Virus record (IMG/VR): IMGVR_UViG_3300047274_000120
Coordinates: 1-32,998 of that record
Strand: one strand, 5' to 3'
Origin: a virus
Length of the DNA: 32,998 nucleotides
In this document: piece by piece, positions 999 through 32,366 of the stretch
How the letters are laid out: each line of letters opens with the position of its first letter
Numbering within the stretch: position 1 is the first letter of the stretch
Made by a program: the position numbers and the translations under genes
Notes under the pieces: generated by a model
The model's database searches: none
Told to the model about the DNA's origin: nothing
Seen by the model: only the letters and a program-made list of their open reading frames with translations

Positions 999-1059
999 GT
1001 GGGCGCTATGCAGCATATTGGGAATTTACTTCGGCGTGTTGATGTTCCTGTTCATCTGA
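991..1059 (+). CDS. Hydrophobic membrane micro-peptide, 22 aa
   Basis: The frame from ATG 991 to TGA 1057-1059 encodes a peptide that begins MIEW and is then almost wholly hydrophobic (SILGIYFGVLMFLF), long enough for one membrane crossing. It overlaps the end of the 39-aa gene by 8 bases, and its stop lies 11 bases before the GTG start of the ERF gene. There is no strong ribosome site, so translation would depend on coupling. A second peptide starting MIEL, with a similar membrane segment, occurs at 29186-29266. Confidence 0.45.
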   Translation: MIEWALCSILGIYFGVLMFLFI

Positions 1060-1070
1060 AGGAGTCAAAA

Positions 1071-1700
1071 GTGCAAAAGGTTTACGAAGCTATCTCAAAA
1101 GTGATGCTTTCGATTTCAAAGGAAGGCATTTCAAAATCAAGAGTCAACGAAGGCCAAGGTTACAAGTTCAGAGGCATCGATGACGTTTACAATGCAATGG
1201 CTCCGATTCTTGCAGAGCACAAATTATGCGTTCTGCCAAAGGTCACTGACCGGCAAGTAACCGAACGAATCAACAAACACGGCACTGCATTGTTCTATGT
1301 CACCGTGCACATGGACTTCACATTAGTCTCCGGCGAAGATGGTTCAAGCCACGTTATCTCGACGATTGGCGAGGCTATGGACTCCGGTGACAAAGCAACC
1401 AATAAAGCTATGTCAGCCGCTTATAAATACGCACTCATGCAAGCGTTTTGCATTCCGACCGAAGGCGACAATGACTCTGAGAACCAGACGCACGAAGTTC
1501 AGCCTAAGCAAAACAAACAAACGTCTGAGAAGTACATAAACGACGTTAGAAATGCAAAATCAATGGATGATCTAAAGCAACTGTTTACCGAAGGCTATAA
1601 AGCCTTAAAAACAAATGCTGAAGCCATCCGCGAATTAGACATTGCAAAAGAAGCAAGAAAAAAAGAATTGACGGAAATCAATGAACCTAAACAACTTTGA
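1071..1700 (+). CDS. erf: ERF-family single-strand DNA annealing protein
   Basis: This 209-residue protein belongs to the ERF family of phage single-strand annealing recombinases (P22 Erf is the type member). The conserved core is clear: YKFRGIDDVYNAMAPILAEH near residues 31-50 and GEAMDSGDKATNKAMSAAYK near 100-119. The C-terminal third is a charged helical tail. The start is GTG at 1071, with AAGGAG 6 bases upstream; a longer frame from 999 lacks a ribosome site and overlaps the micro-peptide. With the YqaJ-type exonuclease at 2689 it should form a two-part recombination system acting on double-strand ends to build concatemers for packaging. Confidence 0.92.
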   Translation: MQKVYEAISKVMLSISKEGISKSRVNEGQGYKFRGIDDVYNAMAPILAEHKLCVLPKVTDRQVTERINKHGTALFYVTVHMDFTLVSGEDGSSHVISTIGEAMDSGDKATNKAMSAAYKYALMQAFCIPTEGDNDSENQTHEVQPKQNKQTSEKYINDVRNAKSMDDLKQLFTEGYKALKTNAEAIRELDIAKEARKKELTEINEPKQL

Positions 1701-2043
1701 AGAAGGCTTGATCGATCAGATCCAGGCCGAACGATGCAAGAAACTTTTATGGTCGGTTATCAACCTTGCCGTACAAGATGCTTGCTTGGCACCCTACGCA
1801 TCCAAACCATCAACAGATTCGATCACGGCTATTCGGTTTCTGATCGGCAACGAAAAGGAAGCTGGTGTCGATGGTTATCTGATGTGGCTGGACGTTGACG
1901 GACCCGAGTTCAGGCGAAGGCTTGTCGAGGCAATGTTTGCGGAACGACACGATAAGTTTCCAGACATAGCAAGAAGAGCCTTCAGAGCAAACTTTAACTG
2001 GTGGAGAAAGAATCGTGCGAATTATATTGACGACGGAGAATGA
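1681..2043 (+). CDS. Conserved phage protein in recombination operon, 120 aa
   Basis: The gene overlaps the end of erf by 20 bases. The protein is helical with no membrane segment and has a recognisable layout: an N-terminal helix (EEGLIDQIQAERCKKLLWSV), a middle with AIRFLIGNEKEAGVDGYLMWL, and a basic Trp-rich end (RRAFRANFNWWRKNR) that could touch nucleic acid. I cannot name the family with confidence. Its position between erf and ninB suggests a role in DNA metabolism or regulation of this operon. Confidence 0.8.
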   Translation: MNLNNFEEGLIDQIQAERCKKLLWSVINLAVQDACLAPYASKPSTDSITAIRFLIGNEKEAGVDGYLMWLDVDGPEFRRRLVEAMFAERHDKFPDIARRAFRANFNWWRKNRANYIDDGE

Positions 2044-2437
2044 CCGCAGGACGGCTTTAGAGGCCGTGCAAGGCGCAGAACTTGGTCACATGATACAAGT
2101 TACAAAGCCACCTCGATCAGCGGCTCAGAATCGGTTTTACTGGGCTTTGCTTCAGGCTTGTGCAGAGCAACTGGCGGACGCTAAATATGACCGCGACATT
2201 TGGCACGAATGGGCAAAAGGCCGGTACTTGGTCGGTCGCGTGGTTGAACTTCCGTGCGGATCAATCAAAGAACTCGAACCAACCACAACCGATCTGACCG
2301 TGAACGACTTTTCAGATTTCGTGGAGCAAGTCCTAGCCTACGCGCTCGAAAAGGGTTTAGTCTGGACCGAGGAAATGAAGGATGCCGAGCTGGATCTAAG
2401 GAAGATAAAACGTGTACAGAAACAAGAAGCTGCTTGA
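2015..2437 (+). CDS. ninB: NinB-like recombination mediator
   Basis: This 140-residue protein matches the NinB (lambda Orf) family, which binds single-stranded DNA and helps load annealing proteins onto SSB-coated DNA. Telling features are the RSAAQNRFYWALLQACAEQL segment near residues 34-53, the WHEWAKGRYLVG segment, the TTTDLTVNDFSDFVEQVLAY segment near 90-109, and a helical C terminus. The start is GTG at 2015 with GGAG upstream, overlapping the previous gene by 29 bases. It lies between an annealing protein and nucleases, as expected for a member of a recombination module. Confidence 0.88.
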   Translation: MRIILTTENDRRTALEAVQGAELGHMIQVTKPPRSAAQNRFYWALLQACAEQLADAKYDRDIWHEWAKGRYLVGRVVELPCGSIKELEPTTTDLTVNDFSDFVEQVLAYALEKGLVWTEEMKDAELDLRKIKRVQKQEAA

Positions 2438-2705
2438 GGTCTGCCGGTTTATTCCGTGCCAGCACTGCGGCGCAGATGATGGAACGGTGGTCGCAGCTCA
2501 CAGAAACGAAGGCAAAGGGATGGGCTTGAAGGTCTCTGATACTTTAGTTGCGTCTCTTTGTTTCCGATGCCATTCAGAATTAGACCAAGGCGCAAAACTG
2601 ACTAGAGACGAACGGCGAGAACTTTGGGATGCAGCGCACTTGAGAACATTACATACACTGATCGAAAACGGATTTTTAGGGGTTACGAATGGAACAAAGA
2701 AGTGA
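2412..2705 (+). CDS. DUF1364 / YbcO-like HNH-type zinc protein
   Basis: The 97-residue product resembles the DUF1364/YbcO family, compact HNH-type proteins found in lambdoid recombination regions. Putative zinc or active-site residues are visible: C11, C16 and C19 at the front, H30 in VVAAHRNEGKGMG, and C50-x-x-C53-H54 in SLCFRCHSELDQG. The start is GTG with AAGGAAG upstream and overlaps ninB by 26 bases. A nuclease or structure-specific DNA-binding role fits the family and neighbours; actual cleavage activity is inferred. Confidence 0.8.
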   Translation: MYRNKKLLEVCRFIPCQHCGADDGTVVAAHRNEGKGMGLKVSDTLVASLCFRCHSELDQGAKLTRDERRELWDAAHLRTLHTLIENGFLGVTNGTKK

Positions 2706-3285
2706 GGAGTGGTTCAAAGAAAGGCTTGGCCATCTGACTGCAAGTCGGGCCTCGGATGCGATTGCGAAAGTAGGAACCGCAACAAGAAGGAACTACGCGA
2801 TTCAGCTCGTCACCGAAAGGCTGACCAACTTGCAAACCGAATCGTTTACAAATGCGGCTATGCAGTGGGGTACAGAGCAGGAACCCATCGCTAGAGCCGC
2901 TTATGAGGCCCATACGGGCGTTTTTGTGGAGCAGACAGGGTTTCATAAGCACCCAACCATAAAATGGCTTGGAGCGTCTCCTGATGGCTTTGCAGGCAGT
3001 GGCCTGATCGAGATCAAATGCCCCAACTCAAATACCCATGTTGACTATCTTATTTCTAAGGAGGTTCCGGCTAAATACAAACCGCAAATGCTTACGCAGC
3101 TCATCGTTACAGGACGGACTTGGTGCGACTTTGTAAGTTTCGACCCAAGGCTTCCTGACCATCTACAGTTATTCATCGTTCGCTATGAACCGACCCAAGA
3201 AGACCTAAAGACCATCGAGATTCAGTTAGTAACCTTCTTGGCCGAGGTTGACAAAATGGAGCAATCGCTATGTCAAAAGATATGA
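2689..3285 (+). CDS. YqaJ/lambda-type exonuclease of the PD-(D/E)XK fold
   Basis: This 198-residue protein is a YqaJ-family viral recombinase/exonuclease. The family signature WGTEQEP is at residues 60-66, the catalytic Asp is D99 in GASPDGF, and the E-x-K pair is E108/K110 in LIEIKCPN. The N-terminal SEEWFKERLGHLTASRASDA segment is also typical. The start has AGGGG upstream and overlaps the previous gene by 17 bases. It should resect double-stranded ends to give 3' overhangs that the ERF protein coats and anneals, the same division of labour as lambda Exo and Beta. Confidence 0.92.
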   Translation: MEQRSEEWFKERLGHLTASRASDAIAKVGTATRRNYAIQLVTERLTNLQTESFTNAAMQWGTEQEPIARAAYEAHTGVFVEQTGFHKHPTIKWLGASPDGFAGSGLIEIKCPNSNTHVDYLISKEVPAKYKPQMLTQLIVTGRTWCDFVSFDPRLPDHLQLFIVRYEPTQEDLKTIEIQLVTFLAEVDKMEQSLCQKI

Positions 3286-3491
3286 CCGGATCAATTTCCA
3301 AAAACAAGAAAAAGGAAAAAGACTCTCACCCAGATTACAGAGGGTCTTGCACGATAAACGGCGTTCAATATTGGATTTCGTCATGGGTCAATGAAGGTTC
3401 CGACGGAAAGTATTTGTCCCTAAAGTTTCAGCAGAAAGACGAAGCACCGAGACAGTCTGCACTTTCAGATGATGACAATATTCCATTTTGA
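3270..3491 (+). CDS. Small protein with SSB-like acidic C-terminal tip
   Basis: The 73-residue product has a basic N-terminal tail (MTGSISKNKKKEKDSHPDY), a short beta-rich core (GSCTINGVQYWISSWV, then GKYLSLKFQQKD), and ends SDDDNIPF. That ending is the hallmark of bacterial single-stranded DNA-binding proteins, where the DDDIPF tip recruits repair and replication enzymes. The core looks too short for a full OB fold. The start has GGAG 8 bases upstream and overlaps the exonuclease gene by 16 bases. Being next to erf, ninB and the exonuclease, it probably acts at single-stranded DNA or mimics the SSB tip to recruit host enzymes. Confidence 0.8.
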   Translation: MSKDMTGSISKNKKKEKDSHPDYRGSCTINGVQYWISSWVNEGSDGKYLSLKFQQKDEAPRQSALSDDDNIPF

Positions 3492-26359: not shown

Positions 26360-26789
26360 CGATTACTCGCTCGATCTTTTTGAACTCAATGGGCATACCA
26401 TCGATGCCGCTATGCTCGTGACGCTGCACTTCCTTCCAGCCCATTTGACACTTTGACCACCAGATTTGAGCGGTCGTATCGCCTGCCATAGCCTTTTGGA
26501 AGATTCCCTTGCCGACTTGAGCGTTTGCTTTAGCCTTGCCATTCAGCAGTTCGGCAGAAAACTTATCGCGCAGCGTATCAACGTGAATGCCATCTCGAAC
26601 TAGTGCCGCAATCTGCTCAAACGGCACGCCATAGCCAGATAACGCTTCTACTTGTTTGCGCTCTGAATCTGTCGGCTCAAACGGCTTGCGACCAGCACCA
26701 GCTCGTGCGCCACCGTAGTTTCTAGACTCCGTTGCCTCTTTTTTAGGCGCTCGGGTTGATTTTTCAGGATCTGATTTCTTTGTTGTCAT
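26334..26789 (-). CDS. terS: Terminase small subunit
   Basis: A 151-residue DNA-recognition subunit. The N terminus is basic and disordered (TTKKSDPEKSTRAPKKEATE); GGARAGAGRKP leads to a helix-turn-helix (SGYGVPFEQIAALVRDGIHV), then an oligomerisation helix (KANAQVGKGIFQKAMAGDTT, AQIWWSKCQMGW). The start has GGAGG 6 bases before ATG 26789, inside the end of the methyltransferase gene. It should bind a pac site, often within its own gene, and deliver DNA to TerL. Confidence 0.88.
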   Translation of the reverse strand: MTTKKSDPEKSTRAPKKEATESRNYGGARAGAGRKPFEPTDSERKQVEALSGYGVPFEQIAALVRDGIHVDTLRDKFSAELLNGKAKANAQVGKGIFQKAMAGDTTAQIWWSKCQMGWKEVQRHEHSGIDGMPIEFKKIERVIVGANNIKD

Positions 26790-27987
26790 TCATAACCTCC
26801 GCGAAAGGTTTTCCAGTTTCTGCGTGTATTGCTATTTTACCCGTAAAGTCTTGCCATCGCTTGACGATGACATCGCAGTATTTTGGGTCTAGTTCCATCA
26901 TTCGACAAGACCGACCTGTTTTTTCGCAGGCAATCAAAGTGCTGCCGCTGCCGCCAAAAAGATCAATCACGATGTCATCGCTTTTGCTTGAGTTATGCAG
27001 CGCCTTTTCAATTAAAGCGACCGGTTTTGGTGTTGTGTGGCCAACAACTCTTTCTTTATCAAACCTCCAAACACTTACTTGTTTTCTATCGCCATAAAAA
27101 GCGTGAGATCCGTTATTCATCCATCCGTACAAACAAGGCTCGTGTTGACTTTGATAGTCGGTTCTTGAAAGTGTCAAACTATTTTTAGCCCAAATAATCA
27201 TGCTACTAAAATGAAAAAACTCTCTAAACACCAAATGAAAAATATCGGCGCATTTATCTGAATGGAATACATAACATGACGCACCTGATTTGCAAGCGGT
27301 CACATAATTTGCAAACGCTTGTCTTAGCAAATCTTCAAGGCCTGATCGCTCATCATTATTAATTCCTTTGTAATCAACCCCATAAGGTGGATCTGTAAAC
27401 ACCATATCTGCCTTTTGTCCCTGCATTAACTTATCAACCGCATCCACGCTTGTACTATCGCCGCACATAAGCCTATGCTTGCCTAGTATCCAGATGTCTC
27501 CAGGCACAGTTCTCGCATTCTCAGGAATCGGAGGCACATCATCTGGATCAGTCAACCCTTCCGTTCCAACTGGCGCAAGCAACTCTTTTATCTCATCTAA
27601 CTCAAATCCAGTGAGCTCGAGGTCAAAACCAAGTTCCTGCAAATCAGCAAACTCAACCTTCAGCATTTCAGTATCCCAGCCCGAATTGAGTGCAAGCCGA
27701 TTGTCTGCAATCACATACGCTCGCTTTTGCGCTTCCGTAAGATGCTCGAGTCGAATACATGGAACTTCGCCTAATCCAAGCTTGCGAGCGGCAAGCACTC
27801 GTCCGTGGCCGGCAATGATTCCCCCACCCCCATCTATCAGAACCGGATTCGTAAACCCAAACTCTTTGATGCTGGCAGCAATTTGAGCAACTTGAGCATC
27901 TGAATGTGTCCTGCTGTTTCGAGCGTACGGAATCAGATTATCAATCGCCAGCTGCTCAATCTTCTCGGCTGCATGATGTTTCTTCAT
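26764..27987 (-). CDS. ParB-domain DNA methyltransferase fusion
   Basis: A 407-residue fusion. The N-terminal ~110 residues form a ParB/sulfiredoxin-like domain (IDNLIPYARNSRTHSDAQVA, then GGGGIIAGHGRVLAARKLGL). A DNA methylase follows, with DPPYGVDY at 199-206 (catalytic motif IV), the HTTPKPVAL element at 317-325 and the SAM-binding FGGSGST at 344-350. The DPPY-before-FGGSG order is the beta class, probably N6-adenine. Such genes commonly precede terminase; modifying phage DNA to resist restriction or mark DNA for packaging are the usual ideas. The centre of the gene (near 27180-27260) looks AT-rich. Confidence 0.93.
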   Translation of the reverse strand: MKKHHAAEKIEQLAIDNLIPYARNSRTHSDAQVAQIAASIKEFGFTNPVLIDGGGGIIAGHGRVLAARKLGLGEVPCIRLEHLTEAQKRAYVIADNRLALNSGWDTEMLKVEFADLQELGFDLELTGFELDEIKELLAPVGTEGLTDPDDVPPIPENARTVPGDIWILGKHRLMCGDSTSVDAVDKLMQGQKADMVFTDPPYGVDYKGINNDERSGLEDLLRQAFANYVTACKSGASCYVFHSDKCADIFHLVFREFFHFSSMIIWAKNSLTLSRTDYQSQHEPCLYGWMNNGSHAFYGDRKQVSVWRFDKERVVGHTTPKPVALIEKALHNSSKSDDIVIDLFGGSGSTLIACEKTGRSCRMMELDPKYCDVIVKRWQDFTGKIAIHAETGKPFAEVMNDNKEIRS

Positions 27988-31065: not shown

Positions 31066-31647
31066 TCACGGCCCGATCTGTAATACTTTGGTATTACCAG
31101 CGAAAACTAATTTCGCCATTTCTTGATTGCCGATCAACACCGGAGTCGGCAGCGGCAACCCTTTGCGGTGATACTCATCGTCTGGAGACCTAGCACCTCG
31201 AAGCAGTTTCGGGTATTCGCGCGGAGATTTTGCAAATGATTGGTAGGTCTGCATGAACCGATGTTGCGTATAACTGATCTCGTCCATCTCAACATTGGCA
31301 ATCTTGACCCATCCGCCCATGACCTCGATCACAGCATGAATCGTAGGGTCATCAAACACAACATCTTTCCAAGGCCCAGCTCGTCCAATCGCAGCATAGA
31401 CCTTCGCCCAGGCATCTTGCGCTCGATCTGTCGGAGTGCCGGATAAGATGCGAACGATATCAGCGACCTTTGGCGCAAACTGACCTCGCTCTGGATCTGT
31501 AGCGTGTTGCGTTAAGGCCTTTTGAACTTGCTCGAAATCGTAGACCTGACAAGCCGACCACCAGATATCGACCACGAACGGCGAGCAGTCCTGCCGGTAA
31601 TAGGCCATAACCGAGGAAAGCAATTCAGCAAATTTCGCTTGACTCAT
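31066..31647 (-). CDS. DUF6475-like replication partner (helicase-loader candidate)
   Basis: A 193-residue helical protein resembling DUF6475, found after phage replication initiators. Signature-like segments are KFAELLSSVMAYYRQDCSPF, VVDIWWSACQVYDFEQVQKA, GQFAPKVADIVRILSG, and FDDPTIHAVIEVMGGWVKIA. The ATG at 31647 is used, with AAGGAG 6 bases before it, overlapping the DUF1376 stop as ATGA. In lambda the equivalent position holds P, which delivers DnaB helicase to O at the origin; the same job is inferred here. No Walker motif is visible. Confidence 0.82.
   Translation of the reverse strand: MSQAKFAELLSSVMAYYRQDCSPFVVDIWWSACQVYDFEQVQKALTQHATDPERGQFAPKVADIVRILSGTPTDRAQDAWAKVYAAIGRAGPWKDVVFDDPTIHAVIEVMGGWVKIANVEMDEISYTQHRFMQTYQSFAKSPREYPKLLRGARSPDDEYHRKGLPLPTPVLIGNQEMAKLVFAGNTKVLQIGP
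31080..31097. promoter_or_regulatory. Candidate operator copy 2 (perfect GTAATAC/GTATTAC palindrome)
   Basis: On the minus strand the sequence is GTAATACCAAAGTATTAC, a perfect 7-4-7 inverted repeat at the very end of the DUF6475 gene and about 50 bases before the start of the 54-aa gene. The related copy at 164-181 lies in a true control region. A regulator-binding site or a small RNA hairpin are both possible. Confidence 0.35.
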
Positions 31648-32366
31648 GCTTTGCTCCTTGCCCATTCCAACGCAATCGCTCGATTTCGCTCCTCTAGCGC
31701 AATCTGCTTGTTCACCGGAGCTTCAGAGTACCAATCCGCTTTGAACCCTTGCCATCCACGTTCAGCGCAGACTTTCAGGGCATCGTTCAGCGACAAGCCT
31801 GCTTTGCCTGCCTCTCGCTCGATACCGTCCAGTGCGATCTGCGTGATTGGCGAACGCTTGGCTTTTCTGATGGCTTGAAATGCTTGCCAAACATCATCAT
31901 CGACTTGTGGTGGCTTAAATATATAAAGCCCTTTAGGGCTTTTCTTTGGTTCTTGGTTATTGGTTATTGGTTGTTGGTTATTGGTTGGTTGCACGGTCGT
32001 TGAACGGTCGTTGAACGCTTGTTCAACATCTGTTGAACCCTTGTTCATCGAACGTTTAGCAGCCGATGCTTTTCCGGCTTTAGAAGCCTTTTCAAGCTGT
32101 TGCTGATAGTGCTGGATTTCTTTGTCGCATCGTTTGTGATGCCACTTTCCGTCCTCCAGAACGAAGAACATCTCTAGCAAGCCGGAAATGACATCCTCGT
32201 TCTCTCGTGCGTTCACTTTCATTGAAAGTTCAAACATCGAGTTCGGCAACGGTTTTTCGGTGTCGTAGTAGAGCCAGAGCAACTTCATGTAAATCCCGAC
32301 CTCTTCGTTGGTCAGAAATGAAGTGTCTTTTATAAAGTCACCAATATGGTGCTGGTAATAGTGCAT
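31644..32366 (-). CDS. DUF1376 (YdaU-like) replication initiator
   Basis: A 240-residue protein with an N-terminal DUF1376 domain (HHIGDFIKDTSFLTNEEVGI, YMKLLWLYYDTEKPLPNS), common in prophage replication regions. Residues 106-140 form an unstructured Asn/Gln/Pro/Thr linker (QPTNNQQPITNNQEP) whose DNA holds the repeat array described as a candidate origin. The C-terminal part (VDDDVWQAFQAIRKAKRSPI, LKVCAERGWQGFKADWY) is a separate helical domain. The design parallels lambda O, with the origin inside the gene. It is the first gene after the control region at 32.4 kb. Confidence 0.85.
   Translation of the reverse strand: MHYYQHHIGDFIKDTSFLTNEEVGIYMKLLWLYYDTEKPLPNSMFELSMKVNARENEDVISGLLEMFFVLEDGKWHHKRCDKEIQHYQQQLEKASKAGKASAAKRSMNKGSTDVEQAFNDRSTTVQPTNNQQPITNNQEPKKSPKGLYIFKPPQVDDDVWQAFQAIRKAKRSPITQIALDGIEREAGKAGLSLNDALKVCAERGWQGFKADWYSEAPVNKQIALEERNRAIALEWARSKA
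31915..32055. other. Candidate replication origin inside the initiator gene
   Basis: Three elements are adjacent. At 31947-31988 there are six tandem 7-mers (TGGTTCT, TGGTTAT twice, TGGTTGT, TGGTTAT, TGGTTGG). At 31995-32016 GGTCGTTGAAC occurs twice in tandem, and 32021-32038 is GTTCAAC-ATCT-GTTGAAC, a perfect palindrome. On the other side, AAAGCCC-TTTA-GGGCTTT (31925-31942) forms a hairpin beside an AT-rich run. Repeats, a hairpin and AT-rich DNA inside the linker-coding part of an initiator are the layout of the lambda origin. Functional use is inferred. Confidence 0.6.
31947..31988. repeat. Six tandem 7-bp TGGTTNN repeats (iteron-like)
   Basis: Six consecutive heptamers share TGGTT, with the last two bases varying (CT, AT, AT, GT, AT, GG). 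They encode the Asn/Gln-rich linker on the minus strand. Because 7 is not a multiple of 3, three reading phases are used across the array, so the repeat is kept at the DNA level and not as a peptide repeat. Confidence 0.85.

Follow-up and report, generated by a model that had tools for sequence, protein, structure and literature searches.

A candidate replication origin with an ori-lambda-like layout inside the DUF1376 initiator gene of a phage

The linker-coding segment of a DUF1376 gene, located in a 32,998-base virus record (IMGVR_UViG_3300047274_000120, analysed in its entirety and referred to here as the window), is very probably a theta-type phage origin that lies inside the gene of its own initiator and works like ori-lambda, a reading of the sequence and its relatives to which we assign a probability of about 85%. 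The gene has the lambda-type layout, with iterons between the two initiator domains, an adjacent element of low stability and a helicase-loader-like gene next door (Table 1), and both lambda and the iteron plasmids likewise pair iterons with an unwinding element (PMC5043065; PMC3985674). This origin-in-initiator layout appears to recur across the large DUF1376 family, whose function was previously unnamed, and suggests that the lambda design arose or spread in an initiator family without detectable relation to O. The reading would assign both function and mechanism to a family that is widespread and mostly annotated as hypothetical or "primosomal", and would make the exact origin of many phages and prophages predictable from sequence. 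In the openly available literature, full-text searching for DUF1376 returned no origin paper, as judged by titles and the opening of abstracts.

Table 1. Positions of the DUF1376 gene, its candidate origin elements and the adjoining gene in the window.
Feature	Position	Strand	Basis
DUF1376 replication initiator gene (proposed lambda-O-like role)	31644..32366	-	240 aa; Pfam and PHROGs matches
N-terminal domain (DUF1376), a predicted winged helix that would bind the iterons	32082..32366	-	AlphaFold pLDDT 91.8
Disordered linker coding region, holds candidate origin	31902..32054	-	low pLDDT; repeats of homologues confined there
Six iteron units, exact 11-bp spacing, core GTTSAAC	31988..32049	-	read from sequence
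Iteron core GATGAAC	first base 32049	-	gene-strand reading
Iteron core GTTCAAC	first base 32038	-	gene-strand reading
Iteron core GTTGAAC	first base 32027	-	gene-strand reading
Iteron core GTTCAAC	first base 32016	-	gene-strand reading
Iteron core GTTCAAC	first base 32005	-	gene-strand reading
Iteron core GTGCAAC	first base 31994	-	gene-strand reading
Heptamer array, (CCAANAA)x5 and one degenerate unit; proposed unwinding/helicase-loading element	31943..31984	-	repeat, shuffle and codon tests
Hairpin AAAGCCCT-TT-AGGGCTTT, directly after the heptamers	31925..31942		perfect 8-bp arms
AT-rich stretch TTAAATATATAAA	31915..31927		read from sequence
Next gene, DUF6475; proposed lambda-P-like partner	31066..31665	-	Pfam DUF6475; PHROG helicase loader

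The protein matches DUF1376 (PF07120) at its N-terminus with 87.4 bits against a Pfam gathering cut-off of 30.1 (E=8e-25), and its PHROGs matches are to "primosomal protein" (E=1e-35) and "replication initiation O-like" (E=2e-15), the C-terminal half being akin to the primosomal and O-like initiation families. As the linker blurred full-length Foldseek searches, the N-terminal domain was folded with AlphaFold and searched alone. The model has a helix-helix-helix-hairpin-helix topology of the winged-helix type, and its top Foldseek match was the DnaD N-terminal domain, weak and non-significant (E=0.17, probability 0.84); a PDB sequence search with the DUF1376 domain found no relative and no DnaD sequence match. 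The predicted fold thus weakly resembles known DNA-binding winged helices. The C-terminus is predicted with confidence to be helical, and between the two lies the linker, whose disorder the preliminary description had proposed and AlphaFold bears out (pLDDT 45-63 over about residues 111-150, lowest at residues 118-127). The DNA repeats presumably dictate the peptide of the linker, which would account for its disorder.

Read in the direction of the gene, the segment runs from six 11-bp-spaced cores through the heptamers and the hairpin to TTTATATATTTAA. The preliminary description had counted six tandem 7-bp repeats, of which five are exact (gene strand 31984-31950: CCAATAA, CCAACAA, CCAATAA, CCAATAA and CCAAGAA) and the sixth is a degenerate CCAAAGA; Tandem Repeats Finder reports period 7 and 5.9 copies at 31946-31986. 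Its scores for the linker arrays (68-75) are the maximum for the window and do not exceed 39 elsewhere in it, and the pattern CCAANAACCAANAACCAANAACC has three matches in the window against none in 100 dinucleotide shuffles. One strand of the array is C/A-rich and the other G/T-rich. The two tandem 11-bp repeats noted earlier were an undercount, as the gene strand carries six cores exactly 11 bp apart, four of them exact GTTSAAC and two with one mismatch, and the lag-11 autocorrelation of this stretch (z=3.8) was equalled by none of 300 synonymous shuffles. Two neighbouring 11-bp units form the perfect palindrome that had been reported (GTTCAACA-2 nt-TGTTGAAC, 32038-32021), and the hairpin and the AT-rich stretch are likewise where they had been placed. 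The excess of folding after the array is modest in homologues (mean z -0.9), so the hairpin is listed and carries no weight in the argument.

Selection on these repeats acts on the DNA, as codon and shuffle tests across the family prove. We gathered 128 non-redundant complete DUF1376 genes by scans with the N-terminal domain only, and shuffled synonymous codons inside each gene. CCAANAA occurred 322 times in the real genes and 126±9 times in 200 shuffles (highest 151), a 2.6-fold excess, and three or more heptamers per 30 nt were present in 59 of the 128 genes compared with a shuffle mean of 2.8 (maximum 6). Counting against the reading, 50 of the 128 members have fewer than two CCAANAA units. 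Clusters of three heptamers within 30 nt were found in 0 of 423 other open-reading frames of the same loci. The homologue comparison proposed in the preliminary description came out in its favour: the heptamers persist in homologues, where they lie 40-60% of the way along the gene and use every codon phase. That description had also inferred selection on DNA from a unit length not divisible by three; the selection is real, but whichever frame a 7-bp unit is read in, the cyclic heptapeptide is the same, which makes the divisibility argument alone no more than suggestive.

Codon use speaks to the opposite arrangement, in which an Asn/Gln/Pro linker is needed by the protein and the DNA repeats merely follow. 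Most members do share a PxTxNQx peptide. Within the motif NQ[EQK]PxT, however, synonymous codons are near-invariant, with CCA for P at 97% (36% in the remaining gene), ACC for T at 98% (35%), AAC for N at 100% (59%), CAA for Q at 99% (54%) and GAA for E at 100% (57%); together with the excess over synonymous shuffles this makes selection on the peptide an extremely unlikely explanation. Homologues in which the peptide was retained while codons varied freely were not seen at scale, nor did the case named beforehand as adverse, a conserved linker peptide without DNA repeats, turn up among them, the codons being near-fixed in the motif and mixed in the gene. All three codon phases are likewise represented among the 11-bp units, which encode unrelated dipeptides by frame (VQ, FN, ST). 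Linker autocorrelation rose far above that of synonymous shuffles at lags 11 (z=21.8), 22 (z=17.5), 7 (z=15.3) and 33 (z=6.7), whilst in the 3'-terminal 240 nt of these genes lags 7, 11 and 22 did not rise above the shuffles (z=-0.2 at lag 11) and z peaked at 4.5 over all lags. Genes with at most one CCAANAA retain the lag-11 signal (z 9.5).

Cyanobacteria, Bacteroidota and others also carry the heptamer in tandem arrays, as would be expected if it were a generic simple-sequence repeat spread by slippage through a permissive linker. The chromosomal arrays differ in kind, being homogeneous in 101 of the 120 listed compared with 18 of the 120 listed for viruses, and a long sense open-reading frame holds 32 of the 120 chromosomal arrays listed whereas 116 of the 120 viral arrays listed are coding. 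Slippage also fails to explain the recurrence in one gene family, the lack of clusters in neighbouring reading frames and the adjacent, independent 11-bp repeats; a slippage origin of the heptamers is strongly disfavoured, and we regard it as very improbable. When viral contigs were searched with the heptamer pattern only, at least 120 stretches matched; a DUF1376 protein is encoded by 105 of the 120 listed, and contig edges truncate several of the remaining ones. Among whole viral contigs the pattern was found in 39 of 40, in a single place each, and the segment holds a unique position in these genomes. Arrays without a recognisable DUF1376 gene were seen in viral contigs L011, L087, L091, L113 and L119, and also in L030 and L069, several of which resemble the chromosomal repeat type. 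The bacterial contigs (L203-L322) carry homogeneous (CCAANAA)n arrays that reach 38 units and for the most part lie outside long sense open-reading frames.

The spacing of 11 bp is shared between groups whilst the sequence of the unit is specific to each (GTTSAAC; GCAWWGC; GCGAACGC; CCCAGT-like), and heptamers accompany every iteron class. The type of iteron goes with the N-terminal domain: pairs of genes with similar N-terminal and different C-terminal parts shared 0.30 of their iteron 7-mers (3,100 pairs), pairs with different N-terminal and similar C-terminal parts 0.033 (150 pairs), against a background of 0.052. In naturally recombined genes the iteron sequence tracks the N-terminal and not the C-terminal domain, strong though not conclusive evidence that this domain reads the iterons, because physical closeness adds to the co-variation. 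A column-by-class comparison of N-terminal domains, ignoring phylogeny, revealed no clear recognition residues. On this pattern the 11-mers look like lineage-specific iterons, and the 7-mers like a shared unwinding element and not like specific binding sites. The family also offers a natural data set in which a DNA-binding domain co-varies with its cognate iterons.

Some pairs of genes have near-identical C-terminal parts and different N-terminal parts and iterons, with the switch at the array. For example, the window gene (31644-32366) and locus L156 form a natural chimera of this kind. The heptamers could accordingly be seen mainly as a joint at which phages swap the two domains, but this would leave the 11-bp units and the local minimum of stability unexplained, and swaps at a conserved functional repeat are expected anyway; we consider such a joint a very unlikely account of the array. 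It is possible, though somewhat less likely than even, that CCAANAA is an initiator-independent signal for unwinding or helicase loading, serving many unrelated iteron specificities in very many phages, and that DUF1376 is a modular kit. Such a kit would comprise a swappable DNA-binding domain with matching 11-bp iterons, a common heptamer joint and swappable helicase-recruiting domains, and the heptamer junction would also serve as a recombination point. Named relatives in which the exact array is missing (L664, L202, L665 and L663) have different short repeats at the corresponding position: Pseudomonas AH02 and Rac carry GATACA, Vibrio 1.052 carries CCCAATA and Bordetella IFTN2 carries AACCAG. 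A C/G-rich hairpin follows the substitute repeats in several relatives, e.g. CCCCCGCAAGCGGGGG in Bordetella phage IFTN2.

In homologues the mean stacking energy reaches its minimum at the array (-1.22, compared with -1.29 in synonymous shuffles and about -1.41 in the flanks), and GC-rich DNA comes after this minimum. At the lambda origin an easily melted element adjoins the iterons, and origin unwinding elements are sequence-specific, depending on more than AT-richness (PMC5043065). What we infer is that the segment is bound and unwound, is a site of helicase loading and acts as an origin. The N-terminal winged helix would bind the 11-bp-spaced iterons, which at one per helical turn would place the units on one face of the DNA; the iteron-bound assembly would destabilise the neighbouring CCAANAA heptamers, and the helical C-terminal domain would recruit the helicase loader from the next gene, which would in turn place DnaB on the opened strand. 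The candidate origin put forward in the preliminary description is thus supported at the level of sequence in an amended form, the iterons being the six 11-mers and the 7-mers the shared unwinding element. A predicted winged helix and iterons that travel with the N-terminal domain would be equally expected if the protein bound its own gene as an operator, repressing or tuning transcription, with replication starting elsewhere. Yet 40-60% of gene length is an unusual place for an operator, the family names and neighbours are those of replication proteins, and low-stability heptamers next to iterons are the layout of an origin, which together render an operator improbable.

The closest parallel to the proposed origin is ori-lambda, where iterons also lie inside the initiator gene, between the N- and C-terminal parts, at a relative position of 0.39-0.48 (nt 349-433 of 900) compared with 0.4-0.6 in DUF1376 genes, and where the helicase loader gene also adjoins the initiator gene. 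Lambda O, a proven case, gave a signal of similar size at its known iteron spacing in the same autocorrelation test. In contrast to the six 11-bp-spaced units of the window gene, lambda has four iterons of ~19 bp at a spacing of 20-24 bp, with a purine-skewed AT-rich element instead of a C/A-skewed heptamer array. The initiator families are unrelated by sequence, in keeping with what had been proposed: the DUF1376 protein matches neither PF04492 nor TIGR01610, both of which lambda O itself matches, and hhalign gave a probability of 0.2%. As sequence homology to lambda O is absent, the claim is of an origin that works like ori-lambda and not of a lambda O protein. Iteron plasmid origins and oriC also pair initiator-specific repeats (DnaA boxes or iterons) with a low-stability element made of repeats (13-mers), but these origins are non-coding, whereas in the window gene both repeat types lie in an open-reading frame and constrain a peptide. 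The Rac prophage of E. coli has an active origin, oriJ (PMC3945230). In Rac of E. coli K-12 the DUF1376 protein gene ydaU is followed by that of the ATP-binding protein YdaV, and the Rac stretches examined carry no annotated rep_origin feature. The ydaU linker has GTTCAA-type repeats with signals at lags 23 and 11, and GATACA/GATAAA-like repeats in place of the CCAANAA array.

The neighbourhood of the gene is one of replication functions. The DUF6475 product is weakly helicase-loader-like (PHROG helicase loader E=1e-8 over residues 7-76), relatives have DnaB-like helicases, primase/helicases and DnaC-like and P-like loaders as neighbours, and in named phages these are annotated as "replication protein P", "helicase loader" or "replicative DNA helicase". 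GC skew across the window is uninformative, since it tracks the direction of the genes and only 1 kb separates the array from the end of the contig. Over genomes that include relatives, GC3 skew in genes of both strands was higher downstream of the array than upstream (p=0.0019), and also when centres 2-4 kb upstream were taken; the switch has the expected direction and lies at the array or up to about 4 kb upstream, without being sharp. Elsewhere in the window, positions 26764-27987 encode in one gene a ParB-type N-terminal domain fused to an N4/N6 DNA methyltransferase, and a recombination module on the plus strand (999-3491) comprises an Erf-like annealing protein, NinB/Orf, a RecE-like exonuclease and a single-strand binding protein.
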